Shown one piece after another: positions 29,987-53,400 of a DNA stretch of 53,641 nucleotides. Every line of letters begins with the position of its first letter. Within the stretch, counting starts at the first letter, position 1. Made by a program: the position numbers and the translations under genes. Origin of the DNA: a virus; the IMG/VR virus record IMGVR_UViG_3300013119_000172, positions 1 through 53,641 of that record, one strand, 5' to 3'. The notes under the pieces were generated by a model. The model had not been told where the DNA came from and made no database searches. It saw only the letters and a program-made list of their open reading frames with translations.

Positions 29987-32900
29987 TTATCCCAATAGTC
30001 TGAATGTTTTTCCAACAGCGTATGTGGAGAAGCCCCACTTGGGATCGTACTTCAATCGTGACATATAAGGTTTATTTAAATGTATCCGATCTTTACCTTT
30101 ACGAATTCCCCAACACCTTATTTTAGTTAGTTCGTTGTTAGAATCTATTACCTCTACTATCCAATAATCTTCTCCTTTCTTTGTCTTCTTGGGAATTACT
30201 TTTCTCGGTATAAACCAACACAAATGTAGCTCTGGGTCAAATTCAGAAATTGGTGGGACGTGTCGTTCTTTCAGTTTTTCAATCGTCTGTTCATTGATTA
30301 CAAGATTCATTGGAAAGACTCCAGTTAGATCTGTCTTAAACTGTATTATTTCTTCCTCAGAAAAATCTCCCTCTGGTTTGTAGAGCCCTATGTTGTCCTT
30401 GAGGCGCTTCTCTGTCTTTGGTCTGTCTACGATACAGGCTGACCAAAAGTGCTTACGCCCTGTGAACCTTTCATCAACTAATCCATCCAATGCGCCGCCG
30501 CGACACAAGGCATCAAGGCACTTCTTGTTCAACTTACTGTATGTTACCCCTTCCTTGAACAATAGCTCTTCGGCAGTCGTAAATGGTCTATTTTCCAATA
30601 CTTGGACAATGGCAGCATCACCAAGACCTTTAATTGAAGTAAGTGGTTGAATGAGCGTCTTACTGTCATCACTTATTTCCCATACTCGGCCTGATTTGTT
30701 GATATCAAGTGGTGCAAGCTCAAATCCACTACTCTTGACAATATTAATTGCTTTTTCTTTTCTACTCTCTGGTTCTTTATCAAGAAATGCTGCAGCCCAT
30801 TCACTGGGGAAATGTGTCCACAGCCAAGCACATTGATAAGAGATGATACTGTATGCCGTTGCATGATTCTTTGAAAACCCATATTTCGCAAAGCCAGCCA
30901 TTAAGTCCCAAATCTCTTCGGCTGTGCCAATAGTCATGCCATTATCGTTAGCCCCCTCAATGAATTGCTCTCTGAATTTAACCAGAAGGTGTTCTTTTCC
31001 TGTGCCTTTTTTGGTTAACAGTTTGCGAATAGTGTTTCCGTCATCCCTAGAGATATCTTTACCTATTCTGTGAGTTATTTCAGAAATCTGCTCTTGATAA
31101 ATGATGTGACCAAATGTTTCTTCTGTGATCTCTCTAAAGATCGGATGATACCACTTAATGTCGGTTGGGTCGTCTTTGGCAGCAATATATTGGTCATTTA
31201 CGCGACCGGCCAATGGCCCAGGTCTAAAAATGCTAGTCACTGCTGATATTTCTGCAATGGTCTTTGGTGCCACTTCTTTACAGAAACCCTGTGCACCATC
31301 GTTACTAAACTGGAATGTACCTGCGAAATTTCCCTTGCGGAAGACATATTCGTATACTTTTTGGTCGGTTAAATCAAGGACATCAGGATGGAGCGTGTCA
31401 TCATAATATTTCTTTATCTCTGCAAAGGTTGGTTCGCTTGTGCCGTGGTGGCGCTTTAAGATGTGCTCGATGCAGCCCTCGATCATCCTTAGTGTAGATA
31501 GCCCAAGAAGATCAAACTTAATAAACCCTAATGGCTCCAAGTGGCGGACATTCTGGCCCTCTGACCAAGGGGACTGTATAACACCGCCGCTGTTGATAAG
31601 CGGCATGTTGCTGTTTAGGTTCTCAGATACCAAAAGGCCACCTGCGTGTCTGGAATTGCTTCTTCTTTGGCCAACAAGTGAGCCTACTTGTTCTTCGACT
31701 TCTGGGTATTTCATTAAAAATTGTTTTAATGACGGAGAAAACATCCGCAACTCATCCCAATTCGGAGTATGCACTCCTGACACAATATTGTTTAATCTTT
31801 TAGCCTCCGGCATAGCTTCGCGTCCCATTGCGCTAGTTACGGTATTCACCTCATTGAACGGCACCCCGTGCAGCTTACTGATATCCTTAACCAGTGATTT
31901 TACTTGCAGAGTGTTCCAGTTGGAAATAGGAGCAACGCAGTCGTCTCCCCACATCTCAACCAGCTTCTCTTTCAGCAGCATACTGTCAGATATGTCAGTA
32001 TCAATGTCCGGATAATCTACTGCATCTGAGCGCAAAAAACGCTCAAACGGAAGGTCATAGGCAATAGGGTCAACTTGTGTAATACCAAGAACATATGCAG
32101 TCAACGAACCAACTGCACTCCCTCTTCCTGGCCCAACTAGCATAGACTTATTGGCTACATCGATGATAGCCGCCATCGTGAGGAAGTATTTGGAGAAGCC
32201 CCTGTCGTTAATGACACCAAGTTCATGTTTTAGACGCTCGACATATTCTGGCTTATTGTTCAAGCCTTTGTTTTTCAGTCCTTCTACGGCTATCTTCACT
32301 ATTGCCTGTGTGTCTGTTAGGCCATCTGGTACAACAAAATCTGGTAGTCTGACAGTCGTATCTGGCATAAATGATTCTATACGCTCATGTGCTATCGCAT
32401 ATGTTTCCTCAATGCTTTGCCTAACAACCTCATCATCATATTCTGTTTTATTTATTTCAGAGAATCGCTTATAGTTCTCCCACATCTGATCACCATTCTT
32501 GGGATACAGTTCGCATTTGGTGTCCTCAATAGTTTTTGGAAGAAAGTCGTCGTCTTCGGCGAACGATGGCTTTCCTCTTCCTAGCCAACCAAGGCGCTTA
32601 TATAATTCACGATCACGCCAAGCGGCCTTCGTCGGATAGTGACTATCGGCAGTGGAAATTAACTTAAGATTGAACTCTTCAGCTATTTGAATAATAAACT
32701 TATTTAATTCATGTTGTTCTGGGATATTGTGCCATTGGAGTTCTGGATACCACCTGTCTCCGAAGATATCAACCATCCTCCTAGTTGACTCCCTCATTGC
32801 CTCTAAGACTGCTTCTGTGCCCTCATCTCTGTGTTCCCAATAGCTTCCAGCGTAAATTCCACCTAAACAAGCACTTGCTGCAATTATGCCCTCATTGTGT

Positions 32901-33418
32901 TTCTCTAGCATATCGTAATCCATCCTAGGATAACGATAGAAGTTCTCTTTAGCATGGCTTGCCGAAATCAAAGCAAACAAGTTATTTAAACCCTTCTGGT
33001 TCTGGGCTAGTAGGACTAGATGGCGACGGCGGCGTAGCGGATCAGTCTTCTTTTTACTGGAGCCTTCGTCTTCTGATGTGCCACCCTTGGCTTCTTTTTT
33101 CAAAGCTTTGGCTTTCTTTTTGTCAGCCATCGCTGTCGCGTAATCCTCTCTCCAGTCGGCAATAGATGGAATAAAATAAGCCTCACAGCCAAAAATGGGC
33201 TTGAATACTCTACCTTCTGCTGCCATCTTTTTTGCGTGCAACACTTGATAAGAGAGACCATTAGCATTCCCGTGATCAGTGAGTGCTAATGCATCCATAC
33301 CGTTGGCATATGCAGAGTCCATATGTTCGTCTGGTAATCCCAATGCGTCGAAAATAGACCCTGCGACACTGTGAGCATGAAGGCCAACAAATTTAATAGT
33401 TGATTTAGTACGTTTCAT
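29987..33418 (-). CDS. dnaE: DNA polymerase III alpha subunit (DnaE type)
   Basis: 1143 residues from the ATG at 33418 (AGGGGAAG before it). The N-terminal PHP domain has VGLHAHSVAGS and ALTDHGN. The palm carries GRGSAVGSLTAYVLGITQVD and PDIDTDISD with the catalytic aspartates, then FSKNHATAYSIISYQ. The length is close to bacterial DnaE (1160), with the OB domain at the end reduced. It is the replicative polymerase of this phage, which is unusual for a phage of this type. It has its own sigma70-type promoter. Confidence 0.95.
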   Translation of the reverse strand: MKRTKSTIKFVGLHAHSVAGSIFDALGLPDEHMDSAYANGMDALALTDHGNANGLSYQVLHAKKMAAEGRVFKPIFGCEAYFIPSIADWREDYATAMADKKKAKALKKEAKGGTSEDEGSSKKKTDPLRRRRHLVLLAQNQKGLNNLFALISASHAKENFYRYPRMDYDMLEKHNEGIIAASACLGGIYAGSYWEHRDEGTEAVLEAMRESTRRMVDIFGDRWYPELQWHNIPEQHELNKFIIQIAEEFNLKLISTADSHYPTKAAWRDRELYKRLGWLGRGKPSFAEDDDFLPKTIEDTKCELYPKNGDQMWENYKRFSEINKTEYDDEVVRQSIEETYAIAHERIESFMPDTTVRLPDFVVPDGLTDTQAIVKIAVEGLKNKGLNNKPEYVERLKHELGVINDRGFSKYFLTMAAIIDVANKSMLVGPGRGSAVGSLTAYVLGITQVDPIAYDLPFERFLRSDAVDYPDIDTDISDSMLLKEKLVEMWGDDCVAPISNWNTLQVKSLVKDISKLHGVPFNEVNTVTSAMGREAMPEAKRLNNIVSGVHTPNWDELRMFSPSLKQFLMKYPEVEEQVGSLVGQRRSNSRHAGGLLVSENLNSNMPLINSGGVIQSPWSEGQNVRHLEPLGFIKFDLLGLSTLRMIEGCIEHILKRHHGTSEPTFAEIKKYYDDTLHPDVLDLTDQKVYEYVFRKGNFAGTFQFSNDGAQGFCKEVAPKTIAEISAVTSIFRPGPLAGRVNDQYIAAKDDPTDIKWYHPIFREITEETFGHIIYQEQISEITHRIGKDISRDDGNTIRKLLTKKGTGKEHLLVKFREQFIEGANDNGMTIGTAEEIWDLMAGFAKYGFSKNHATAYSIISYQCAWLWTHFPSEWAAAFLDKEPESRKEKAINIVKSSGFELAPLDINKSGRVWEISDDSKTLIQPLTSIKGLGDAAIVQVLENRPFTTAEELLFKEGVTYSKLNKKCLDALCRGGALDGLVDERFTGRKHFWSACIVDRPKTEKRLKDNIGLYKPEGDFSEEEIIQFKTDLTGVFPMNLVINEQTIEKLKERHVPPISEFDPELHLCWFIPRKVIPKKTKKGEDYWIVEVIDSNNELTKIRCWGIRKGKDRIHLNKPYMSRLKYDPKWGFSTYAVGKTFRLLG

Positions 33419-34296
33419 TCTTCCCCTTTTTCTATACACATTTTATCATGTCTGTGTGGGTTTGTCAATAGCTTTTCTGGTGTTTCTATGTTATTGTCTG
33501 AGCCAAGGAAGTTACAATATTCCGACCAATTCGACATATCGTAATACCACTCCAAGATCATCTTGTGTGATGTTTTTTTTATCTCTAGTTCTGCGAATAC
33601 TTCTTTGATGCTCAAGTGACGAGCAGACCATCGATCTGCCAATGGTCTCTTTCGGCTGGGCATGTGCTCACCTGGCAGTGGGGGTAAATACTCTCTTGTA
33701 GTATTTTTGTTTATTGCATTACGACATTTTTTAAAGTCTGTACCAAACATTGTAAATGGCAAAGGCAAGCCATCTCTAATTGTCATATCGTTGTATGTCA
33801 GAAAGAAATTGTGCTTACTATCGCATATCTCTAGACGATGGGGTCGCAAATCATATATGTTATACATAGCCATCGGGAAGGCTACAAAGAACTTTTCTGG
33901 AATGACCCACTTAGAAATAGACCACGCCGTCATATAGGCTGACTGCATTCCACATAGAGCAGACCAACTGTACGAATCTCTACGCTCACGATCTTTCGGA
34001 CGTATCGGAACATAATAAATGGGTATCTCTCTACGATATTCTCTGTGGCCGCGATCTGTTCGTCGGCGATATAAGTATACAGGATCGTATATCCACTCAC
34101 CAACTCGTTTACGAATAATTGGAGCGAGATCGTCATTTGCGACAATCCAGATAGTCTTACATCCAGCCATAGCGCACTCAAATACAGCTTTTTGGATTGC
34201 TGTGTAATCTGGGTTTATTGGCAATAATATTTCTGGAGTATCTAGCTGAAAGTCACTCTTTAAATTGGCCACAGGGACTATTCCGGCTACATGCAT
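33415..34296 (-). CDS. Nucleotidyltransferase/glycosyltransferase-like protein
   Basis: 293 residues from the ATG at 34296. The start MHVAGIVPVANLKSDFQLD, the block ILLPINPDYTAIQKAVFECA and GCKTIWIVANDDLAPIIRKR follow the GT-A sugar-nucleotide fold (G-x-V-P, then D-D and a recognition helix). Similar proteins are found in marine phages, always uncharacterised. It could activate a sugar for modifying phage DNA or the cell surface. The start overlaps the upstream stop by a few bases. Confidence 0.55.
   Translation of the reverse strand: MHVAGIVPVANLKSDFQLDTPEILLPINPDYTAIQKAVFECAMAGCKTIWIVANDDLAPIIRKRVGEWIYDPVYLYRRRTDRGHREYRREIPIYYVPIRPKDRERRDSYSWSALCGMQSAYMTAWSISKWVIPEKFFVAFPMAMYNIYDLRPHRLEICDSKHNFFLTYNDMTIRDGLPLPFTMFGTDFKKCRNAINKNTTREYLPPLPGEHMPSRKRPLADRWSARHLSIKEVFAELEIKKTSHKMILEWYYDMSNWSEYCNFLGSDNNIETPEKLLTNPHRHDKMCIEKGEE
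33440..33468 (-). promoter_or_regulatory. Sigma70-type promoter of the DNA polymerase III gene
   Basis: TTGACA (33463-33468), 17 bases, TAAAAT (33440-33445), inside the last codons of the gene upstream and 21 bases from the polymerase start. Confidence 0.75.
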
Positions 34297-41570: not shown

Positions 41571-42557
41571 CTAAGTCACTCTTTTTCGCTTCTCTGAACA
41601 CTCTCGACTAATAAGAGCCAAATGTGTCCTCAGTGTTTCCCAATTTAGCTCCCCAAAGCCATCGATATTCATCATCTTAATGATCTCTGTTCTATTAAAC
41701 TCACACTCAAAATTATTCACGGTATACTCAACATGTTGTTTTGATTGTATTGAAAGCTGAGGAGCATACAATTGCATTAGTTTATAATTGTGGCGTATTG
41801 TATCTTGTTCTTCAATTATGCGAGATAAGACTTTTAATTTATTTTCTGACTCCTCGCAAGTTTGAACAATATCATCTAGCGTGTAGTCCTTGGCTTCTGC
41901 AAGATATGGAAATCTCTTCTTTATTGTTCCGAATCCTACGCCCCTGACGCCTTTAAGGTTGTCTGACTTGTCACCAATAATTGCCCTAGCTAACGCCATG
42001 TTTGTTGGGTGAACTCCAGTTTCTTCCACAACTCTGCCAGAATTTAAGAACTCATCTTTTGTTGGCCTCCATAAGACAGTTTCGTCATCACAAAGCTGCA
42101 TGAAATCCTTGTCATTAGAGACGACAATCTTCTGCCAGCCTTTGTAATATGACATTTGAGTCAAATAGGCAATTACATCATCTGCTTCGATATCTGGCAC
42201 CATAAATTGAATCACCGGCATCGAATTAAGATATTCAACAATACGAGCGTGTTGCCACATTTTGTTTTGTAGCTCTTCGTTCTCTGTAAGGTTCCGTATC
42301 GATCTATTTAATCGAACTGGCTTACGACCCGCTTTATATTTTTTGTCCATAGTACGGCGCTTCCTAGAGCCATTGGGGCCATCCCATACGACTATGATCT
42401 GACTGGGCTTAGTGACACGAACAAGTTTCTGTAAGATCTTCGTAAAGCCCTTGAGGCCGCCAATTGGGCTTCCATTAAGAGACAAACTAGGATCAACTAT
42501 ATAAGCTCGTAAATATGCGTTCAGGCCATCGATGATTAGTACTCGTTGTTTTTCCAT
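41571..42557 (-). CDS. 5'-3' exonuclease (FEN/RNase H type)
   Basis: 328 residues from the ATG at 42557 (AAGG before it; TAATG overlap with the gene upstream). VLIIDGLNAYLRAY and VVWDGPNGSRKRRTM start the nuclease core, then DIEADDVIAYL and VVSNDKDF give the metal site, and GDKSDNLKGVRGVG the helix-hairpin-helix. It removes RNA primers and flaps on the lagging strand. A separate exonuclease is consistent with a family-A polymerase here that has no such domain. Confidence 0.9.
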   Translation of the reverse strand: MEKQRVLIIDGLNAYLRAYIVDPSLSLNGSPIGGLKGFTKILQKLVRVTKPSQIIVVWDGPNGSRKRRTMDKKYKAGRKPVRLNRSIRNLTENEELQNKMWQHARIVEYLNSMPVIQFMVPDIEADDVIAYLTQMSYYKGWQKIVVSNDKDFMQLCDDETVLWRPTKDEFLNSGRVVEETGVHPTNMALARAIIGDKSDNLKGVRGVGFGTIKKRFPYLAEAKDYTLDDIVQTCEESENKLKVLSRIIEEQDTIRHNYKLMQLYAPQLSIQSKQHVEYTVNNFECEFNRTEIIKMMNIDGFGELNWETLRTHLALISRECSEKRKRVT

Positions 42558-42820
42558 TAGACCTTCTGTAAGTCTGAGATCATGGAGTCGACGTCTAATT
42601 TGCGGATTGAGCTCCACTTAAACCAATCGTATTCTGGATTCAAGCCTTCATTACGAAGATCGGCTTTCCAGTTGTTGTATTTTTGGCGTGTTTCGTCATT
42701 GATCCAATCGACCTTGACATATTTCCAGCCGCCCTCTGTTTTTTCTTCTCTCACCGTTCCAAATAAAAGGCTCAGATCACCATACGTGGTCCAAACCTTT
42801 TGCCCTATTAAAGTGTCCAT
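42557..42820 (-). CDS. Small IGQKV-type beta-barrel protein
   Basis: 87 residues, MDTLIGQKVWTTYGDLSLL, with a GTVREEK strand and an aromatic WKYVKVDWI strand, then a charged helix. It is a looser relative of the VGDLV proteins. It is directly behind the strongest promoter in the window and is translationally coupled to the exonuclease. Function unknown. Confidence 0.65.
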   Translation of the reverse strand: MDTLIGQKVWTTYGDLSLLFGTVREEKTEGGWKYVKVDWINDETRQKYNNWKADLRNEGLNPEYDWFKWSSIRKLDVDSMISDLQKV

Positions 42821-42844: not shown

Positions 42845-42873
42845 ATTATAATCTATTTTTTGTTGTTTGTCAA
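42845..42873 (-). promoter_or_regulatory. Consensus sigma70-type promoter
   Basis: TTGACA (42868-42873), 17 bases, TATAAT (42845-42850): a perfect consensus match in a 32-base gap. Confidence 0.9.
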
Positions 42874-43533
42874 GTGTTCTTTTATGGCCTTTTCGGCAAT
42901 CTTTGCAACTGCCCATCTAGAATTTCGAGATAAGCCCTTATAAGTCTCCAGATGTTCAGATACCTCTTTAAAAACAAATGGGCGACGCTTAACACGACTC
43001 ATAAATTCTGCCTCTTCTCCGCCAGTAAAATCGCCAACAGGCTCTTTTCTGCCCAAGCCAGGCCAAGCTTCATTGGTTCCTAGCAAATAAGCTTCTCTCC
43101 CTCCACGTGGAATAATCAGCACCGAATCTTGACAAAACATTGCCGATAACGATCCTAAAGTGTCAGCAAATTTTGGATCATCTGTATAATTTACAACAAA
43201 GAAGCTCTCTTCAGCAACTTCTATAGATGGGTGCTTCTTTTTATCTTTTGAATTAAAATTCTCAATATAAGAGCCATCTATTGTAGTTACACCAAATCCC
43301 TTTTTCAGCAAAATAGCTCGCAGAGCTCTATTCCTTTCAAAATTGACATCCGCATCTTCATCCTTTTCTGTCCCTATTGATGGAACATCAAGCACACATT
43401 GGTGACGTGAACGCGGCGAATTGCGGTGTCCTGTGATAATTGCAGACTCGTGTTCTGAAATGTGTTGGTGTATTCTGCTCAGGCCGGATTCTCTGATATT
43501 TGATTTCTTCCAGTTTTCAATTATTTTCTTCAT
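42853..43533 (-). CDS. DUF3293-like phage protein
   Basis: 226 residues, MKKIIENWKKSNIRESGLSR at the start, the marine phage ENW tag. The core has ERNRALRAILLKKGFGVTTI, an ESFFVVNYTD strand, then SVLIIPRGGREAYLLGTNEA. The order resembles DUF3293 (N-R-x-x-x-R-x-L-x-x-x-L-x-x-x-G-Y...). The function of that family is not known. A four-base overlap couples it to the gene upstream. Confidence 0.5.
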   Translation of the reverse strand: MKKIIENWKKSNIRESGLSRIHQHISEHESAIITGHRNSPRSRHQCVLDVPSIGTEKDEDADVNFERNRALRAILLKKGFGVTTIDGSYIENFNSKDKKKHPSIEVAEESFFVVNYTDDPKFADTLGSLSAMFCQDSVLIIPRGGREAYLLGTNEAWPGLGRKEPVGDFTGGEEAEFMSRVKRRPFVFKEVSEHLETYKGLSRNSRWAVAKIAEKAIKEHLTNNKK

Positions 43534-44091: not shown

Positions 44092-45228
44092 CTACTTATC
44101 GTCTTTGTCGGTAGGATCTTCATAAAAGTCGGCTGCTTTGCCTTCTCGCTTGTCGAACTTTTGGACGATATGTTCTTCTACAATCTCGTGTATTAATGCC
44201 TTGAACTCTGGCTTAGCCATTTGCTTCATCCAAGTTCCTGGTTGGAATTTAATGTGTTTGTCGGTGTCCTCGTCGATATGATACCAGCTTCCCCTACTGC
44301 ACACCCTCTTAGAGCCCTTTATTGCTTCAAATAGGCTTTCGTCATTTTGGATGCCGATATTGTCTGTTCCCCAGAGAATTTTGAAAAAGCAATTTCGACC
44401 TTGTGTCCCAAAGCGTGATTTCTCAATCTTACATTTTACTTCTGAGCCTATTCGAAATCCATTCTCATCTTGAACAAAGGCAGCCTTTGATTTACGACCT
44501 GTAAGCCATATGCGCAATGAGTATGAATAATGCAAAGCCTTGCCACCGGGAGTGACATACGGAGTCGTCATTACAATCTGTCGCGCCATCGGCCCCTGTG
44601 GAATGTTTGTTTTCAACTGGTTTAATATAAGCAGAGTTGCTTGTCTGTCGGCAAGTGGTATGATAAGTTTTGACATTCCTTTGGCAAGAATACGAGCTTT
44701 TACTGCGACAGAAGATTGAGGATTGAAGTCACCTTCCACATCTGAGATTGACGGCGTGAATGCCAACGAATCCCAAATGAAAACCATCTGTTCCTCTGAT
44801 GCACCTAGTAAGTCTTCTATTGTCTCTAGGACAAACTCAACTGACGATGCTTGAATGTACATCAGGCGCGACAAGTCGCAGCCAGAACGTTCTAAAAAGT
44901 CTGGATCGATGGCCGACTCAGAATCAAAATAAACAACGATTTTATTCATTTTTTGGGCGTTGGCGGCGATTTGGGCAGCCATGTAACTTTTACCGGTAGA
45001 TGTAAGCCCTGCCAACTCACTGACCTTCCCAACTGGAATACCGGACATCTTACCCTTGCAAATAATAGAATCTAGCCATCGGCTGCCGGTCGGGATCCAT
45101 TCCTTGACTTCTGTGGGGTTGTTGCCCGATAGATCGTGGGCAACATCTCTACCTGCCTTCTTATTGACAAGTTTCATTAGGTCTTTCATTGACACCCGAC
45201 CGGCTTTAGTTTCTTTTTTCTTACTCAT
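44092..45228 (-). CDS. uvsX: UvsX/RecA recombinase
   Basis: 378 residues. A short N-terminal arm precedes the RecA core: Walker A GLTSTGKS (74-81), IVVYFDSESAIDPDFL with the catalytic Glu, MVFIWDSLAFTPS (Walker B) and LLILNQLKTNI with the Gln/Asn switch. The acidic C-terminus (EDPTDKDDK) is typical of RecA. It forms filaments on single-stranded DNA with SSB and starts recombination-dependent replication. A sigma70-type promoter for it lies inside the dam gene. Confidence 0.92.
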   Translation of the reverse strand: MSKKKETKAGRVSMKDLMKLVNKKAGRDVAHDLSGNNPTEVKEWIPTGSRWLDSIICKGKMSGIPVGKVSELAGLTSTGKSYMAAQIAANAQKMNKIVVYFDSESAIDPDFLERSGCDLSRLMYIQASSVEFVLETIEDLLGASEEQMVFIWDSLAFTPSISDVEGDFNPQSSVAVKARILAKGMSKLIIPLADRQATLLILNQLKTNIPQGPMARQIVMTTPYVTPGGKALHYSYSLRIWLTGRKSKAAFVQDENGFRIGSEVKCKIEKSRFGTQGRNCFFKILWGTDNIGIQNDESLFEAIKGSKRVCSRGSWYHIDEDTDKHIKFQPGTWMKQMAKPEFKALIHEIVEEHIVQKFDKREGKAADFYEDPTDKDDK

Positions 45229-46150: not shown

Positions 46151-46264
46151 CTACTCTGCGGTAGGGTTGCTTGTATCTACTACTGCTGTGTCATCTTTAG
46201 CATCGCTACAGCCGTTACAGCCAGATAGCGCCACAGTAAGTACTGTAATCATCAATGTTTTCAT
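46151..46264 (-). CDS. 37-residue lipoprotein
   Basis: Starts MKTLMITVLTVALSGCNG, a complete signal with lipobox L-S-G-C (Cys16), then CSDAKDDTAVVDTSNPTAE. The mature part is only 22 residues and has the Asp/Thr-rich pattern of the longer lipoproteins at 3-4.5 kb. The ATG at 46264 has GGAGGA six bases before it. It would sit on the host membrane, perhaps as a toxic or exclusion lipopeptide. It is flanked by two near-identical hairpins, which marks it as an inserted cassette. Confidence 0.75.
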   Translation of the reverse strand: MKTLMITVLTVALSGCNGCSDAKDDTAVVDTSNPTAE

Positions 46265-46291
46265 AATGTCCTCCTTTACATATAGAATAGC

Positions 46292-46322
46292 AAGGCATCT
46301 GTAACCCCATGCCTTCCTGCGG
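46292..46322 (-). repeat. Hairpin-bearing repeat, copy 1
   Basis: AAGGCAT and ATGCCTT form a 7-bp stem. It precedes the lipoprotein start by 28 bases. The T tract after it is weaker than in copy 2, so it may be a leaky terminator or leader hairpin. Confidence 0.7.
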
Positions 46323-46407
46323 GTGGGGGCTACGCAGCCTCCCAAGTGTATAAACGGAGCAGACTATTTTCATGACCGGTCTGCTATCGGTCGCGTTCAA
46401 GAATGAA
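46323..46407 (-). ncRNA. Structured region downstream of the SSB gene
   Basis: 85 bases without a coding frame, with two further stems: AGCAGAC/GTCTGCT (7 bp, 14-base loop) and a GC-rich GGGAGGCT-GCGT-AGCCCCC. With the repeat hairpin next to it this is the most structured stretch in the window. It may be the 3' end of the SSB mRNA, a small RNA, or the lipoprotein leader. No promoter is seen. Confidence 0.35.
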
Positions 46408-47184
46408 CTATGCGCCGGCCATTAACTCGTTGAAGGCTCGGTCTACTTCGTTGCCACCAGAATTGGTAGCGGCATACTTGGTGGTTTCCGTACTTCGACT
46501 TTCGGCAGAACCATTTCCAGCAAGTTGCTCATCAAGTATCGCATCAATCTGCTCTTTGGTCTGTCGCTCGAATAGCGAGTCGAAGTCGGGCATACGATCT
46601 AGGAGGGAAGGGATCGCTTCATCGTCTTCGAGCAAGAGTGATGTATTTCGTCGCATTTTCAGACTTGTCTGAGGGAATGCACCAGGCTTATTCGGCTTGG
46701 TGTATGTTAGGGCGATGTCAGTGCCCTCTTTGGCGTCAGTAATGTCGCCATACTCTGGGTCAAGGATATAACCAAGCAACAGTTCGTATGCTTGTTTTCC
46801 GTAACCATAAATTTTAATTCCTTCTTCTTCTCGGCCTCGGACAAGGACTGGGGAGAAGTATCTGGTTCGAACAAATAGGCTCTTTGCGAGATTCTTCGTT
46901 TCTGTGTCGTTTTTGTCTGTTCCTTCGCGCCATAGTGCGGAAGCAAACTCGCAAATCGGACAGGCTTCACCAAAGTTGCGTTTCGGGCACACAATCCCGC
47001 CTCTATGTTGACCGACATTGTAATGGAAGAACATTTCCTTAAGCGGGTCGCCGTCTTTAGTTGGGACGATACGAATGGTTGTTTCGCCCTCGTCTGGCTT
47101 GAAGAATGGACCGTGGTCTTTCTTCGCTCCTTCACCTCGTAGTGAAGCTAGTTTCTCTCTCATCAGTTTCATATCAATACTCAT
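46408..47184 (-). CDS. Single-stranded DNA-binding protein (gp32 type)
   Basis: 258 residues. A basic N-terminus (LMREKLASLRGEGAKK, the cooperativity helix) precedes the OB domain. The zinc site is GQHRGGIVCPKRN with His60 and Cys66, then ACPIC with Cys75 and Cys78, the H-C-C-C set of T4 gp32. The acidic end (DEQLAGNGSAE, FNELMAGA) binds partners. It covers single strands and organises helicase and UvsX. Two sigma70-type promoters precede it. Confidence 0.9.
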   Translation of the reverse strand: MSIDMKLMREKLASLRGEGAKKDHGPFFKPDEGETTIRIVPTKDGDPLKEMFFHYNVGQHRGGIVCPKRNFGEACPICEFASALWREGTDKNDTETKNLAKSLFVRTRYFSPVLVRGREEEGIKIYGYGKQAYELLLGYILDPEYGDITDAKEGTDIALTYTKPNKPGAFPQTSLKMRRNTSLLLEDDEAIPSLLDRMPDFDSLFERQTKEQIDAILDEQLAGNGSAESRSTETTKYAATNSGGNEVDRAFNELMAGA

Positions 47185-47233: not shown

Positions 47234-48118
47234 TTACCCCTCTAATGTATCACCATTCAACGAGCTTGTCAAGTGGTTTTTTTGTTTTTGTGTCGCATTT
47301 GTATTAGCCACGACAAAGCCAAAGTCTTGTTTGTGTTCGGTGCCATAAATGGCATACGAAATGTGCTTAAAGGCATTTTTTGGTTTATTCTTCAAAATAT
47401 CTACTAGCCTTCGGTGGAGTCCACCATCAGTCTCAAGAGCCTCATCTCTGATACATATATAATAACACATATCTCGCGAGTTGTCAAGGTCAAATAGCCA
47501 TTTTTCTTCTAAAGTTTTTGGATTTAATATTCCAATTGTTCTTATTCTGTTAATGTCGTTGGGCTTCGATATAACACCTATCTCTGGATCAGCATGAGTG
47601 AAATAGTTGTAATAATGAACAGTCGAAAAAATTGAATTATTGATCGTATCAAAATATGTTTTAATGGGCACTTGTCCAACAACCTCTTCAACTTTTAAAT
47701 TGGAAATAAGAGTCACAGATGACAAAAGGCCAGATCTTGCGTACTCCTGTAATACACCAAAGACTGCTTGCTCTACTAGTCTCGGCATTCCTGTTAAAAG
47801 TTCTGTGTCTGGTTTAATGTAGAATACTTCTATTTTTTTATTTTTAATCTGCTCAAGTATTCCCAAAACATAGTTCGAACTAAACGAGGAGCCAACAACG
47901 AACACTTGTACGTGATCGTTAATGTCGGTAAAAAACTTAGTGAGGTCGGGGATGTTCTTTTCATAGTCCTCTGGGTTTGCATATGTTTTTAGTTTATATT
48001 TCCTCTTCGACGACCGAGCTACAGAACTGCTCATTTGATATACATCGTAGTTGCTCGTTGAGTTGAACTTTTCAGCAATCGCTGAGGCACCGTTGCCTAT
48101 TCCGACTATTGAAATCAT
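47234..48118 (-). CDS. Divergent FtsZ/tubulin-like protein
   Basis: 294 residues. SIVGIGNGASAIAEKF (residues 3-18) matches the first strand and T1 loop of FtsZ. VQVFVVGSSFSSNYVLGILEQ (70-90) stands where the GGGTGTG box should be but lacks its glycines. IEVFYIKPDTELL, LLSSVTLISN (131-140) and YFDTINNSIFSTV (155-167) follow the order of the FtsZ sensor loop, the 'I-x-x-N' and 'AF...N' helices. GTP binding is therefore doubtful, although the fold seems kept. It could position phage DNA or be a virion protein. It lies between the polymerase and SSB genes. Confidence 0.5.
   Translation of the reverse strand: MISIVGIGNGASAIAEKFNSTSNYDVYQMSSSVARSSKRKYKLKTYANPEDYEKNIPDLTKFFTDINDHVQVFVVGSSFSSNYVLGILEQIKNKKIEVFYIKPDTELLTGMPRLVEQAVFGVLQEYARSGLLSSVTLISNLKVEEVVGQVPIKTYFDTINNSIFSTVHYYNYFTHADPEIGVISKPNDINRIRTIGILNPKTLEEKWLFDLDNSRDMCYYICIRDEALETDGGLHRRLVDILKNKPKNAFKHISYAIYGTEHKQDFGFVVANTNATQKQKNHLTSSLNGDTLEG
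47244..47272 (-). promoter_or_regulatory. Sigma70-type promoter of the SSB gene
   Basis: TTGACA (47267-47272), 17 bases, TACATT (47244-47249), at the end of the FtsZ-like gene and 59 bases before the SSB start. Confidence 0.8.
47459..47487 (-). promoter_or_regulatory. Sigma70-type promoter inside the FtsZ-like gene
   Basis: TTGACA (47482-47487), 17 bases, TATTAT (47459-47464), wholly coding. It would give the SSB gene a second start. Confidence 0.45.
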
Positions 48119-49302
48119 ATATCCAACCTCGTGAAGTCTAAATAGTTCTCTCCAATATTTAGATTAACTTTAAATGATCCAAGTTTATTGACAGAAAATG
48201 CCTCTTGTATTTCGGGAACAAGATAACGATCCTCTTCAGCTAAATCAACAACTATCTCGTCATGAACAATGTGGGAAATAAAACTTTTCTTGTTCGCTAG
48301 TAGCTCGTCTATTGCAACAGCACGCCCTAATACCAAATCAGAAGTTGTACTCTGAATTAGATAGTTAAATGACCTACGCTCATCTATTTTAATGTGTCTG
48401 TTCATTGGAGTGCTAATATAACCATCTTTGTACCACTTGTCAAGTAATTTCTCACGGTCATAAACACCTGCGGCGGTCGAATCAGAATTATAGTCATAGA
48501 GCCACGCAAAAAACTTTACTTTAGCGGCCTCACGGTCAATCTTACGGTCTCTAAAAATGTTTTCCATATTCCACTCGTGGATATCTTTTTCTGGCTGGTC
48601 AACGCCCAGTAAGCCAAGCACAGTGCGTGCCTCTGCTCCATTGTAATCTAGAGATAAGAACCATCTATTGTGGGGGCGAATTAAAGCACGAAAGTCTTTC
48701 TTCATTGTTAGAATCGGACAAGAGCCAGTTTTTGTAGTTAGCCTACCGGTGACAGTTCCAAATAGATTATAGTCAATGTGTTTGGGGCCATTCATAAACT
48801 CACGAGCTTTTGTGCGAGTGTTATAGCCAACAAATAGGTTGCGGGCTTTAGAACTATCGAAATTTAGATTCTGGTATTTTATCTTATAGAGTAATCTCTC
48901 TATTGATGCTAAATGATCGTAGTTGGCGGGGCGCTCGTAGTTGTCAAAAACGTGTTGTGTGACTTTATTTTTAATCTCGCAGAACTCTGTTAAGAAGTCA
49001 TGAGGCACAAGATCATAAAAACAATGTTCTCGCAAGTTGATACGGCCAAGCTGAAAAGATTTAAGATATGCCCTAAATGTACGTTGGATGCGACTGACAT
49101 CTTCCTTTTGTTCTTGTGAGCAAGCGTCCTCTAGTGTCTTTCCGTTAACATAAAGCCAAGCATATTCAACACTTGAATCCGTTATCGACGGAGTATATCT
49201 CCATGTTTTCGTTAAATTGGCTGGTATGTGGTCAAAGTGCAATTGTCCATCAACATAAATTCCAACGCAATCTGATTTGTCGTCTAGTGTTTGAAATATC
49301 AA
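48115..49302 (-). CDS. polA: Short family-A DNA polymerase
   Basis: 395 residues. Motif A DYNGAEAR (219-226), motif B REAAKVKFFAWLYDYNS (257-273) and motif C SHIVHDEIVVDL are present, and FGTVTGRLTTKTG marks the thumb-palm hinge. There is no room for a 3'-5' proofreading domain and no 5' nuclease; the latter is a separate gene (41.6-42.6 kb). In motif B the usual F-x-x-x-Y-G is FAWLYDY. It may fill gaps or process Okazaki fragments beside the family-C polymerase, or be the true replicase of this lineage. Confidence 0.85.
   Translation of the reverse strand: MIFQTLDDKSDCVGIYVDGQLHFDHIPANLTKTWRYTPSITDSSVEYAWLYVNGKTLEDACSQEQKEDVSRIQRTFRAYLKSFQLGRINLREHCFYDLVPHDFLTEFCEIKNKVTQHVFDNYERPANYDHLASIERLLYKIKYQNLNFDSSKARNLFVGYNTRTKAREFMNGPKHIDYNLFGTVTGRLTTKTGSCPILTMKKDFRALIRPHNRWFLSLDYNGAEARTVLGLLGVDQPEKDIHEWNMENIFRDRKIDREAAKVKFFAWLYDYNSDSTAAGVYDREKLLDKWYKDGYISTPMNRHIKIDERRSFNYLIQSTTSDLVLGRAVAIDELLANKKSFISHIVHDEIVVDLAEEDRYLVPEIQEAFSVNKLGSFKVNLNIGENYLDFTRLDI
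48139..48146 (-). promoter_or_regulatory. ACTATTTA motif in an 8-bp hairpin
   Basis: Lies 20 bases before the FtsZ-like start, inside the end of the polymerase gene. TCTAAATA and TATTTAGA pair over 8 bp around an 11-base loop. Confidence 0.45.
48415..48443 (-). promoter_or_regulatory. Sigma70-type promoter inside the family-A polymerase gene
   Basis: TTGACA (48438-48443), 17 bases, TATATT (48415-48420), about 300 bases before the FtsZ-like gene. Confidence 0.45.
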
Positions 49303-50495
49303 GGTTCCTCCGAACGTGCGTTTATTCTCCTTACAATATAACTCAACGAACCCGATTTGTCAAATGGTTTGTTGGCTATTCTTTCAAACACAAACAAAGA
49401 AGCTTTTATTCCCTTATTGTCATACAATTGAAGAGTGTCAGACAATAGTTTTATTTTATCTTCTTTCGGCATTGTTCCTTCTTCTTCAATAAGTCGCAAC
49501 TTACAATATAATTCTAACATATTCCGTTCAGAAAAATGTTTATTCAAGCTCTCCGATGTATAAGTCAATGGTTTTTTGTAATGTGTGACAACTTTGCCAG
49601 CACATTCAGAAGTAAATGTGACAGTTTTTTTGATAGAGTTGTGATATATGTCTCGAATACTGATAACAAACTTGTTAAATGAACTTAAATAAGAAGAATT
49701 ATAAGACGACCACAGAACAAGATCTGTTTCTGACTGGTCGTATTTGGCTGCATACTGTTGCATCTGCTTGGAGCCTATGTCGGCGACCAATCGCCAAGGA
49801 TGAGATTTGTCTACCATAAATCCATATGTGGTGCAAGCATTTAAATAAAACTCCCAATTGGGGCTATTGATAAACTTATTAATCTTTTCACTGTCGTCAG
49901 TGGATTTGAGATTGGCTATATCAATGACTAAGCCGGATACATTCATTGGGCATCTACGACTTTTAATATAAGATATCTTGGTCAAAGGCACTGATTCTAA
50001 CGAGCGCGTAAAAACGGGAATCAGTGCGGTCGTGAATTCTGTAAAGTTCATTATTTGAGGGTTTCTTCTTTTTATCTCTTTCGATAATATGTCGACATGC
50101 AAATTGTGGTAACTGCTGTATTCTTTGTTGATGTCCTGATAGCCTTTAAATGCCCGTAGTGATGTCAAGAATGGATCTTGGGTGCCTATTTCGCCAGACA
50201 AAGATTTTTTATCGAATTGTCTAACTAAATCTGAAAAAGCATCGGCCACAAAATTCAACACACGAATATCTCGATTTCCAGAAACTGATTTAATCGACTT
50301 GAGCCTTCGTTTGTTGACTATTTCCAGTGGCACATTGAATCTATCTACACGACCATATAGCAGTTTTTCGCCAAAGTTAAAATCAGTCAGAGTTGAGTAT
50401 TTTTCTCTATGGCTCTGTAGCGTATCGTTGTATATCACTCTTTCATCAAATAATTTGATTGTCTTTTCGGCATTATTCTTTTTGTATTTGGCCAT
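49299..50495 (-). CDS. Conserved virion-type protein
   Basis: 398 residues, taking the second ATG (50495). It is basic and strand-rich with FNFGEKLLYGRVDRFNVPLE, then RSLESVPLTKISYIKSRRCP and SGLVIDIA. No enzymatic motif is seen. Similar large, basic proteins precede DNA-associated virion proteins in marine phages as far as I recall. It overlaps both neighbours by a few bases and probably forms a pair with the 1021-residue protein. Confidence 0.55.
   Translation of the reverse strand: MAKYKKNNAEKTIKLFDERVIYNDTLQSHREKYSTLTDFNFGEKLLYGRVDRFNVPLEIVNKRRLKSIKSVSGNRDIRVLNFVADAFSDLVRQFDKKSLSGEIGTQDPFLTSLRAFKGYQDINKEYSSYHNLHVDILSKEIKRRNPQIMNFTEFTTALIPVFTRSLESVPLTKISYIKSRRCPMNVSGLVIDIANLKSTDDSEKINKFINSPNWEFYLNACTTYGFMVDKSHPWRLVADIGSKQMQQYAAKYDQSETDLVLWSSYNSSYLSSFNKFVISIRDIYHNSIKKTVTFTSECAGKVVTHYKKPLTYTSESLNKHFSERNMLELYCKLRLIEEEGTMPKEDKIKLLSDTLQLYDNKGIKASLFVFERIANKPFDKSGSLSYIVRRINARSEEP
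49335..49363 (-). promoter_or_regulatory. Sigma70-type promoter for the family-A polymerase
   Basis: TTGACA (49358-49363), 17 bases, TATATT (49335-49340), in the last codons of the upstream gene and 32 bases before the polymerase start. Confidence 0.7.
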
Positions 50496-53400
50496 CAACT
50501 TTTACTCACTACTTCTTTTGAATTCTGTATGCTGCACCAAGAGGGGGCATTAGTTGTATCCTTTTCCGAAACATTGTCCAATTCAGTGTGCACTTTGGGC
50601 GTTATGCTAGCAACCCATTTGGCCGATATTGATGTCTCTGCTCTTCCAGGACCAAAACTGTGCTCTGATCGCACTATCATGTGGTAGCCACCAATGCCTA
50701 TTTGTGTCAAATCTGCCCTTGATCTGACAGACGGAGAAAAGCCGGCTGGATCTACATATATGTATACCCCAGGATATGCATTGACATTAGTGAAAGTCTT
50801 TATATCAATATCATAGACCTCTCTTAACTGACTAAGGCCATCATAACCATCTTGTTCGAATCTCAGCTCTTTGAGACCAGTTGAGTCAGTCCTCTTTAAA
50901 TTGATTGCTTTTACTATTCCTCTATCCTTTCCCACAGAATAATGAAATATGCCTCGTGAGTGATCTCTAACAATATTACCATTCATTTTCTCTGATGGCT
51001 GGGAGCGGCCAGCATAATAAGCTAAATAGTTGATCTCTTCACCGACAGCACCCGACGAAGCAGGGCTGTTTACTCTGCCAGAGATATTTCTTAGCAATGG
51101 TCGACTACTCATTACATCACCTAGTGTAAGTCGATTCTTCCAGTCTATGGGCCATGGGCCTGGACCCAATGTAAGGTCAGTTATTTCATCTACGCCAGTC
51201 GATCTATTTTTGTACGAAGTCAAGGAAGCTTGGCTAACTCTTGTTCTTTGCTTTGCTTGACTGCCAAAACATTCTTCCTCATTCAGAAATTCGCTAATAA
51301 GATTATTAAAGAAATCATTCAAAAATTTGGGCAATGGGTAATAAGATTCACCTCGTTTGGCCATTTTGCGAGACATCCACTCAGTGAAATATTTTATCGA
51401 AATAGGCAAGTCCCCCATAGAAATCAAGATAGTTTTATTTATATCTGATTGGTCTTTAATCTCTAGTGGGCCCAACAGGACACGCAGTTTTTTAAATTGT
51501 GTCTCCATTTTTCGGACATTCTCGGCTTCTTCTTCTAAAATGGCATCAACTGCTGCTCCATGGATAATCTGACCAGTAGGTGTTTTTAGAATTTCACCCG
51601 GATCCTTTGACAAATTAGAGATAAAGTTGGCCATATGATCTTTGCCATATGTGGTGCCTATATTTTGCAATATGACATCGATTAGATCGCTAACATAGAA
51701 GAACGGAACTGTTTGTATGTCGTCTGTGTCTTCTGTGGCTATAGACTTAAAGCTTTCTAGTCTCTTTTCATTGTCGCCTAAGTCATTCTCAATTATAGCT
51801 TGACTCATTGAATTAGCTAGATCTTCCGTGTCCGTAGGTGCGGGAGATGAGAAATCACTTGATGTCAATGCATCTTCCATTTTATAAAACGGACCTTGAC
51901 GTAGCATTTCTCGTACCTGTTTATCGGTGATATCAACAAATCTTATTTTACCATTAGAGGATAAATCTGTCACGATGGAGGCAAGGCTTATTTTCTTGTC
52001 ATCATCTATTTCCGAAGCAGATGACTTCTTTAATTCTTGGCGGTGCTCTGATTCGCATTTCTCGGAAAACACTTTTGTTTTGATTTTTCGAACCAGGCGG
52101 CGCTTCTCTGGCTCAGTACTTGAAAATATATTAAATGACGGCTGATCAAAAAAGTCTTCAACATAAGCTAGATATTGAATCTTAAATACGACTCTTCCGT
52201 TTTCATCAATGTCAAAGTCATGAACAGTTGGGGTTAAATTTAACGTAACATACGAATTATATATAGCGTCTTTTACTTCGCTTCTTATGATGCTCCTACC
52301 GGATCCAGAATAAGAAGTGTCCTTGGCTTTGCTTGCCCAGCCAACTACTGCCTTAAGGCGGAAGTCAAGTTTATCTAAATTGTTTGACAATTCTTCATTA
52401 TTTTGTGCTTTAGTGGCAGATGCTTTTGAAGCTGACGAACGACCTGTCTTAAGAGCCAAATCAACATATTTGAAAGTGTGATTACGGCCTGTTTGCCTTT
52501 CAGTTAGCAACTCATCAAAGTCATTTGCAAAAATAGATAAAGAAGCCTTTATGCTCTTCTTGAGGGCAAATGGGTTATCCGCCTCATAAGAAAAAGTAAA
52601 ATCTTGTATACCGACGCCAGCGCCACGCTTAGTGCGATCCTTAAATAAAGCTAGATCTCTCTTTGTAAAATAAGAGTCGAATGGTATTTCAAACTCCTCC
52701 TCTGTTCCATCGGCATATGCTTTTATCTTATATAACCTAATCATCGGCTGTAGGTTTGAAATCTCGCTTGTTTTGATATTCAGTAGATCTCCGTAACCCG
52801 GAAATTGAGTTAAGTGGTTCATGAACGCAAACGGATCACCTTCAACCTGTAGACATGCGTTATGTTCTGCCCTCACCCAGTCAGAGCCCGGCAACGATGT
52901 ATATGGCATCCTCTTTGCCAAGTTTGTCTTATCTAGTATGCCAACTTTGTAATGTGCAAAAGCAGGTATCTGTGACAGTAGGAAACACTGTTCTTTGAAG
53001 AATGGGGGGAAAGTACCAGACACAGCGTCAGCAAAGATCTCAGCATCGGAATCATCAAGTTTATCTTCTGCAACTTCTAGTCGCTCTATCGCCTTTGTTG
53101 TTTTCTCAGAATCTTCTTGCGGTACCCCGAAAACACGATCAAAGATATTAAGGTCTTTTCTTTTTTGATAGGCCACATCTTGACGCATTTTTGTGGCGTT
53201 TTCTTTATTTTCTTGTCTTTTTTTGGATAAAAACGCCCCTATCTGGTCATTGGTGGCCGATGCCGCCTGAAGTATCTTAAATTTGTGGTCGTCCATTGGT
53301 TTTGTAGACAACACCGTTGCCATCAAGGTACCTATAGCTCCAGCAGTAGCAGATGCACTATAATCATCAGAGTTAGTGTTCCACCATTTGTCGTCAGACA

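Follow-up and report, generated by a model that had tools for sequence, protein, structure and literature searches.

The window, a stretch of viral DNA of 53,641 nucleotides (positions 1 to 53,641 of IMG/VR record IMGVR_UViG_3300013119_000172), encodes a protein, designated TubA, that is predicted to have the fold of the tubulin/FtsZ superfamily and that lacks the glycine box. From its motifs, TubA appears to be a pseudo-GTPase that retains the base half of the GTP pocket. The TubA family is conserved and is carried by phages, and TubA is not the sole tubulin of these phages: long relatives of the window also encode a canonical tubulin, TubC.

RESULTS

The TubA Gene and Its Family

The open reading frame proposed in the initial annotation, at positions 47234–48118, is borne out; it starts with ATG on the minus strand and encodes 294 amino acids, which are modeled as a globular core (approximately residues 1–279) followed by a disordered tail. 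The FtsZ-like order of motifs described in that annotation also holds, all of the named motifs being present throughout the family (G6-I-G8, S80-S81-N82, K102-P103-D104, S139-N140, and F/Y156-D/E157-x-I/L159-N160). Relatives in IMG/VR number 91 in a strict scan, 477 in a profile scan, and 100 in a scan from a divergent seed, and the lineage that carries them is a large, widespread family of uncultured phages. Among 156 distinct relatives, Pro103, Asp104, Asn160, and His168 are invariant, Asn140 is kept in 98%, and the S-S-N turn is largely kept. The median dN/dS over 146 close pairs is 0.073, which indicates purifying selection; the relatives in IMG/VR, the low dN/dS, and a nearly invariant gene neighborhood together indicate that TubA is a real gene. 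Searches of Pfam, PHROGs, PDB sequences, and INPHARED (tblastn) gave no significant match to TubA, and a scan of a bacterial and archaeal genome collection found no relative and therefore gave no clue to the host. In the TubA copy of one record (G002; L219, 162045–162893), the profile match crosses one in-frame TGA.

Predicted Structure of TubA

AlphaFold2 models were examined for the TubA of the window (pLDDT 85.7, pTM 0.85, with 40 homologues in the alignment) and for a second member that is 49% identical to it (pLDDT 90.1, pTM 0.89); the two models are not fully independent because their alignments share some sequences. In Foldseek searches of the PDB, both models matched FtsZ first (E 9.0e-13 and 3.7e-12, probability 1.00), followed by TubZ and tubulin. 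More than 800 PDB matches had E <0.001, and the best 50 listed for each model were all FtsZ, TubZ, or tubulin. The matches span the whole chain (query-normalized TM 0.68–0.69, more than 310 alignment columns) at sequence identities of ∼10–15%, and the best matches in BFVD, a library of viral models, were phage FtsZ and phage proteins named as tubulins. The AlphaFold2 and Foldseek results together describe a Rossmann-like N-terminal domain, a long helix H7, and a β C-terminal domain, the arrangement by which the superfamily is recognized from its fold. Comparison by sequence gave a different outcome: the best E for Pfam PF00091 (Tubulin) was 0.1, in one member, and hhalign comparisons of TubA with FtsZ, PhuZ, and TubC profiles were not significant (P 0.17–0.6), but hhalign has little power with these alignments because the control pair of PhuZ and FtsZ was missed too. 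Given the clear structure prediction from two members, the fold of TubA is taken to be tubulin-like, and we regard this prediction as very nearly certain. The initial annotation had proposed such a fold and had named a non-tubulin prediction as the outcome that would tell against it; both models gave FtsZ/TubZ over the whole chain.

Nucleotide Pocket and Catalytic Motifs

Residue equivalences between TubA and FtsZ or tubulin were assigned by secondary-structure position. The T1 loop (residues 6–13, GIGNGASA; 48080–48103, minus strand) reads GIGDAGCN(VV) or GIGTAGEN(IV) in divergent relatives, which is close to the T1 loop of tubulin and FtsZ. At the T4 position, strand S4 of the TubA model runs to residue 75, with the following helix starting at residue 79; FtsZ reads GMGGGTGTGAA there, and TubA has GSSFSSNYVLG (residues 76–86; 47861–47893, minus strand) in place of GGGTGTG. 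The replacement in the family is G-S-S-x-S-S-N-Y, and the glycine box GG[GAS][TS]G is present in 0 of 156 members, which agrees with the earlier description of the glycine-rich loop as gone.

The positions that would contact guanine are occupied as in FtsZ and tubulin. Asn140 (47699–47701, minus strand), the first residue after strand S6 and part of the T6 loop, has the position of Asn165/166 of FtsZ and Asn206 of β-tubulin. On helix H7 (residues 152–175), the aromatic residue and the asparagine of F156-D-T-I-N160 (47639–47653, minus strand) are 4 and 8 residues past the helix start; the counterpart in Escherichia coli FtsZ is F182-G-A-A-N186 and that in β-tubulin is Y224-G-D-L-N228. By position, these predicted guanine contacts are found at Asn140 in 98% of the family, at residue 156 (Phe or Tyr) in 97%, and at Asn160 in 100%.

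The T7/H8 region (residues 176–191; 47546–47593, minus strand; consensus SKP[SN][ED][IV][NQ][RK]) is remodeled. In both models H7 leads through a loop directly to a strand at residues 192–193, helix H8 is absent, and the N-x-D-x-x-D (NxDxxD/E) motif, NVDFAD in FtsZ, was not found. Residue 188 is Glu or Asp in ∼85% of TubA sequences and could be a remnant of the T7 acid; the consensus may thus retain an acid at 188 together with a basic residue at 191. A lysine in T7 of β-tubulin stops the hydrolysis of the GTP held by α-tubulin (PMC13394414), and the basic residue 191 of TubA would be a parallel to this lysine, in a region where the alignment is not secure. Because the glycine box is lost family-wide and the catalytic T7/H8 element is remodeled, TubA can reasonably be taken to lack GTPase activity, as the initial annotation had suggested.

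The Replication Block

Over 222 loci, read as far as each contig extends, the gene order is orf1021, orf399, PolA, TubA, SSB, UvsX, and 5′-3′ exonuclease; the placement of TubA in a replication block by the initial annotation was therefore right, with PolA upstream and SSB and UvsX downstream. In the window, all on the minus strand, these are a compact PolA-family DNA polymerase of 395 amino acids with motifs A (DYNGAEAR) and C (HDE) (48115–49302), preceded by a conserved gene for 399 amino acids, orf399, which has no assigned function (49299–50498), and, downstream of TubA, a gp32-like single-stranded DNA-binding protein, SSB (46408–47184), and a UvsX/RecA-like recombinase (44092–45228). The stop of the polymerase gene and the start of TubA share four bases (NTGA; 48115–48118, minus strand). 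NTGA occurs at the TubA start in 219 of 219 readable loci; in 147 loci these four bases also close a long open reading frame that lies upstream, and in 1 further locus a short one. SSB is immediately downstream of TubA in 188 of 189 loci. Because of the four-base overlap with the polymerase stop, the translation of TubA would be coupled to that of the polymerase throughout the lineage, as a feature of the sequence. A DnaB helicase, a class II ribonucleotide reductase, and a DnaE-type Pol III α are also encoded nearby.

Several other genes of the window may be recorded here. Two polymerase families are represented, the DnaE-type Pol III α (29987–33439, 1150 amino acids, with a PHP domain) and the compact PolA, and there is a separate PolI-type 5′-3′ exonuclease (41571–42617). 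An S-adenosylmethionine lyase family protein is encoded within the replication block (42853–43533), and in Microcystis phage Mel-JY01 a relative of it (E 3e-23) immediately precedes SSB. A short open reading frame between Dam and SSB (46151–46345) has a lipoprotein-like start, MKTLMITVLTVALSGCNGC. The phage GroEL (18422–19999, 525 amino acids) has an identity of at most ∼46% to the best listed records of the phage collection.

Among cultured phages, the block has its nearest relatives in Microcystis phage Mel-JY01 and Flavobacterium phage immuto, where PolA, SSB, UvsX, and exonuclease have the same order as in the TubA lineage. TubC was found in neither phage, and the TubA slot holds an unrelated open reading frame of 129–151 amino acids. 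The slot proteins of the two phages (L396:7675–8064 and L397:1346–1801), which lie between PolA and SSB, are similar to one another and have the stretch LVHRKKESNTxYTIN in common. The idea that two small open reading frames of immuto represent a split tubulin was rejected, there being no profile match.

TubC, a Second and Canonical Tubulin

A search of the long relatives with Pfam Tubulin detected TubC (∼383 amino acids), over the cut-off, in the first five and then in a sixth, that is, in 6 of the 6 records that are long enough to reach its expected place. TubC carries a 60-residue N-terminal extension. The T1, T4, and T7 motifs are intact in 55 of 55 TubC sequences: VGVGGGGN and AGGGGGTGSS do not vary among them, and every one has SFDxxD (SFDSKD in 52). 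The gene lies upstream at a distance of 38.6–44.8 kb from TubA and shares its orientation, the spacing in the 195-kb record being ∼42 kb only if that genome is assumed to be circularly permuted, and it is flanked by a fused Mre11-Rad50-type nuclease gene before it and a terminase after it. In one locus, the product of the gene directly upstream of TubC (L153:2879–5986) is a fusion of an Mre11-like phosphoesterase and a Rad50/SMC ATPase of 1035 amino acids.

The records with only one of TubA and TubC, including the window, stop short of, or right at, the point where the other would be expected (39–45 kb), so no counterexample with one gene but not the other was found, and the contigs that lack TubC were rejected as evidence that the two genes are independent. 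The genome from which the window is truncated probably also has TubC. The presence of both genes in six genomes and the absence of both from the two cultured relatives is suggestive but not proof of a connection, and few independent lineages are represented. No description of two tubulins in one phage, or of a TubA gene, was found in the open-access literature.

DISCUSSION

The explanation that we tentatively prefer overall is that TubA is a pseudo-GTPase that acts as a partner, end-cap, or adaptor on a TubC filament and is tied to the replication machinery. TubA would keep both its fold and the side of the pocket that contacts guanine, without the glycine loop that grips the phosphates, and with a remodeled T7/H8, the element that completes the GTPase site of a neighboring subunit, it would not itself build GTP-hydrolyzing filaments. 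Its pocket would be either empty or permanently occupied by a guanine nucleotide that is not hydrolyzed. As a non-hydrolyzing subunit, an end-cap, or an adaptor, it would tie the TubC filament to the replication machinery, a connection that is proposed because TubA is translationally coupled with PolA and is directly upstream of SSB. The fold, the loss of the motif in 156 of 156 members, the guanine triad, the selection on the gene, the presence of TubC in 6 of 6 genomes, and the PolA/SSB coupling all count in favor of this explanation. On the other side, TubA and TubC, whose genes are ∼40 kb apart, may have in common no more than membership in the core gene set of a single lineage, and the T4 loop, rich in serine, might bind phosphate even so. 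We infer the contact with TubC, the link to the replisome, and the contact with guanine. Put forward more tentatively still is the specific role of an adaptor that links the replication machinery to the TubC filament, which is possible. It is somewhat doubtful that TubC and TubA constitute a two-component phage tubulin system, GTPase and pseudo-GTPase, whose filament holds or moves the replication machinery; if true, a virus would have independently invented the pairing of a catalytic with a non-catalytic tubulin.

The strongest rival, on account of the changes to both faces through which TubA would make longitudinal contacts, is a stand-alone accessory of the replisome, in which the fold has been put to new use as a monomer that holds PolA and SSB together with no link to a filament. 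The changes in T4 and T7/H8, the faces that make protofilaments, agree with this, as do the translational coupling to PolA, the position of SSB immediately after TubA at almost every locus, and the unrelated small protein in the TubA slot of the relatives, which suggests that the slot may suit a polymerase helper. We nevertheless consider it unlikely, since TubA and a canonical tubulin are found together in all six testable genomes and are absent together from both relatives, and a scaffold gives no obvious reason for the guanine triad to stay conserved. It is also improbable that the T4 loop has been replaced rather than lost, with TubA binding GTP or another nucleotide through the serine-rich loop and polymerizing by itself. 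The T4 position is indeed conserved and not decayed (G76, S78, S80, Y83, and L85), the loop has an equal length in an ungapped alignment, and degenerate T4 loops such as SSSGASGSS occur in some PhuZ, but TubA has neither the catalytic N-x-D-x-x-D nor helix H8.

Phage proteins that block FtsZ exist, and bacterial FtsZ provides the nearest solved folds to TubA, so that TubA might be thought to cap or poison the FtsZ of the host and halt its division. This seems highly improbable: a fold match is uninformative about binding to FtsZ, the gene is within the replication block and not among small early genes, and the phage FtsZ blockers that we know of are small and not FtsZ-like. Least credible of all is that TubA is unrelated to tubulin and is a Rossmann-type binder of NAD or another cofactor with a GxGxxG start. 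Some members have weak Pfam matches to Rossmann-type families (best E 0.004–0.006), but both models match the tubulin superfamily over their full length, C-terminal domain included, and the predicted structures largely refute this reading; the identification of TubA as a Rossmann oxidoreductase was rejected on its fold.

TubA resembles bacterial FtsZ in the fold of both domains, the T1-like glycine start, the asparagine after S6, and the aromatic residue and asparagine of H7, but it lacks GGGTGTG, NVDFAD, and helix H8, is shorter (a core of ∼279 amino acids), and has no conserved C-terminal tail. Like the PhuZ proteins of ϕKZ-type jumbo phages, some of which also have degenerate T4 loops, it is phage-encoded and has a tubulin fold. 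However, PhuZ keeps the catalytic aspartate in T7 and polymerizes (PMC3678025), whereas TubA has neither catalytic box and is located in a PolA-SSB operon. TubA and TubC share their genomes, and each has DNA-processing genes as neighbors, but only TubC, which is to be compared with TubZ and with gp138 of Bacillus phage G, has all of the GTPase motifs. The combination of features in TubA matches no characterized phage tubulin. The idea of two tubulins has parallels in α/β-tubulin and in AtubA/AtubB of Asgard archaea, where one nucleotide remains unhydrolyzed and T7 of the partner lacks the catalytic residue (PMC13394414); in these pairs, however, the subunits are close in sequence and each binds GTP, whereas TubA has diverged from TubC so far that the two could not be aligned.

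The initial annotation had pointed to the positioning of a phage nucleus, as with PhuZ. Such a role is unsupported, because no feature of TubA brings it nearer to PhuZ than it is to FtsZ and there is no detectable multisubunit RNA polymerase in the long relatives, an enzyme whose presence in phages correlates with that of tubulin (PMC7824862). A search for it (PF04998) found none in the six long relatives and gave a weak match in ϕKZ. A single-sequence search with chimallin (ϕKZ gp54) gave no match in G000–G006, a weak negative, since it gave none in two comparison phages that carry PhuZ either.

The occurrence of TubC in all six testable records that carry TubA is new and hints that these phages have a skeleton of two components that is connected with the replication of their DNA. 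Known phage tubulins are active GTPases that occur singly; a relative of tubulin that is conserved and under selection although both halves of its catalytic site are gone, alongside an active tubulin, would extend phage tubulin biology to two subunits. With TubA genetically tied to a DNA polymerase, positioning of the replisome without a ϕKZ-type nucleus becomes testable.
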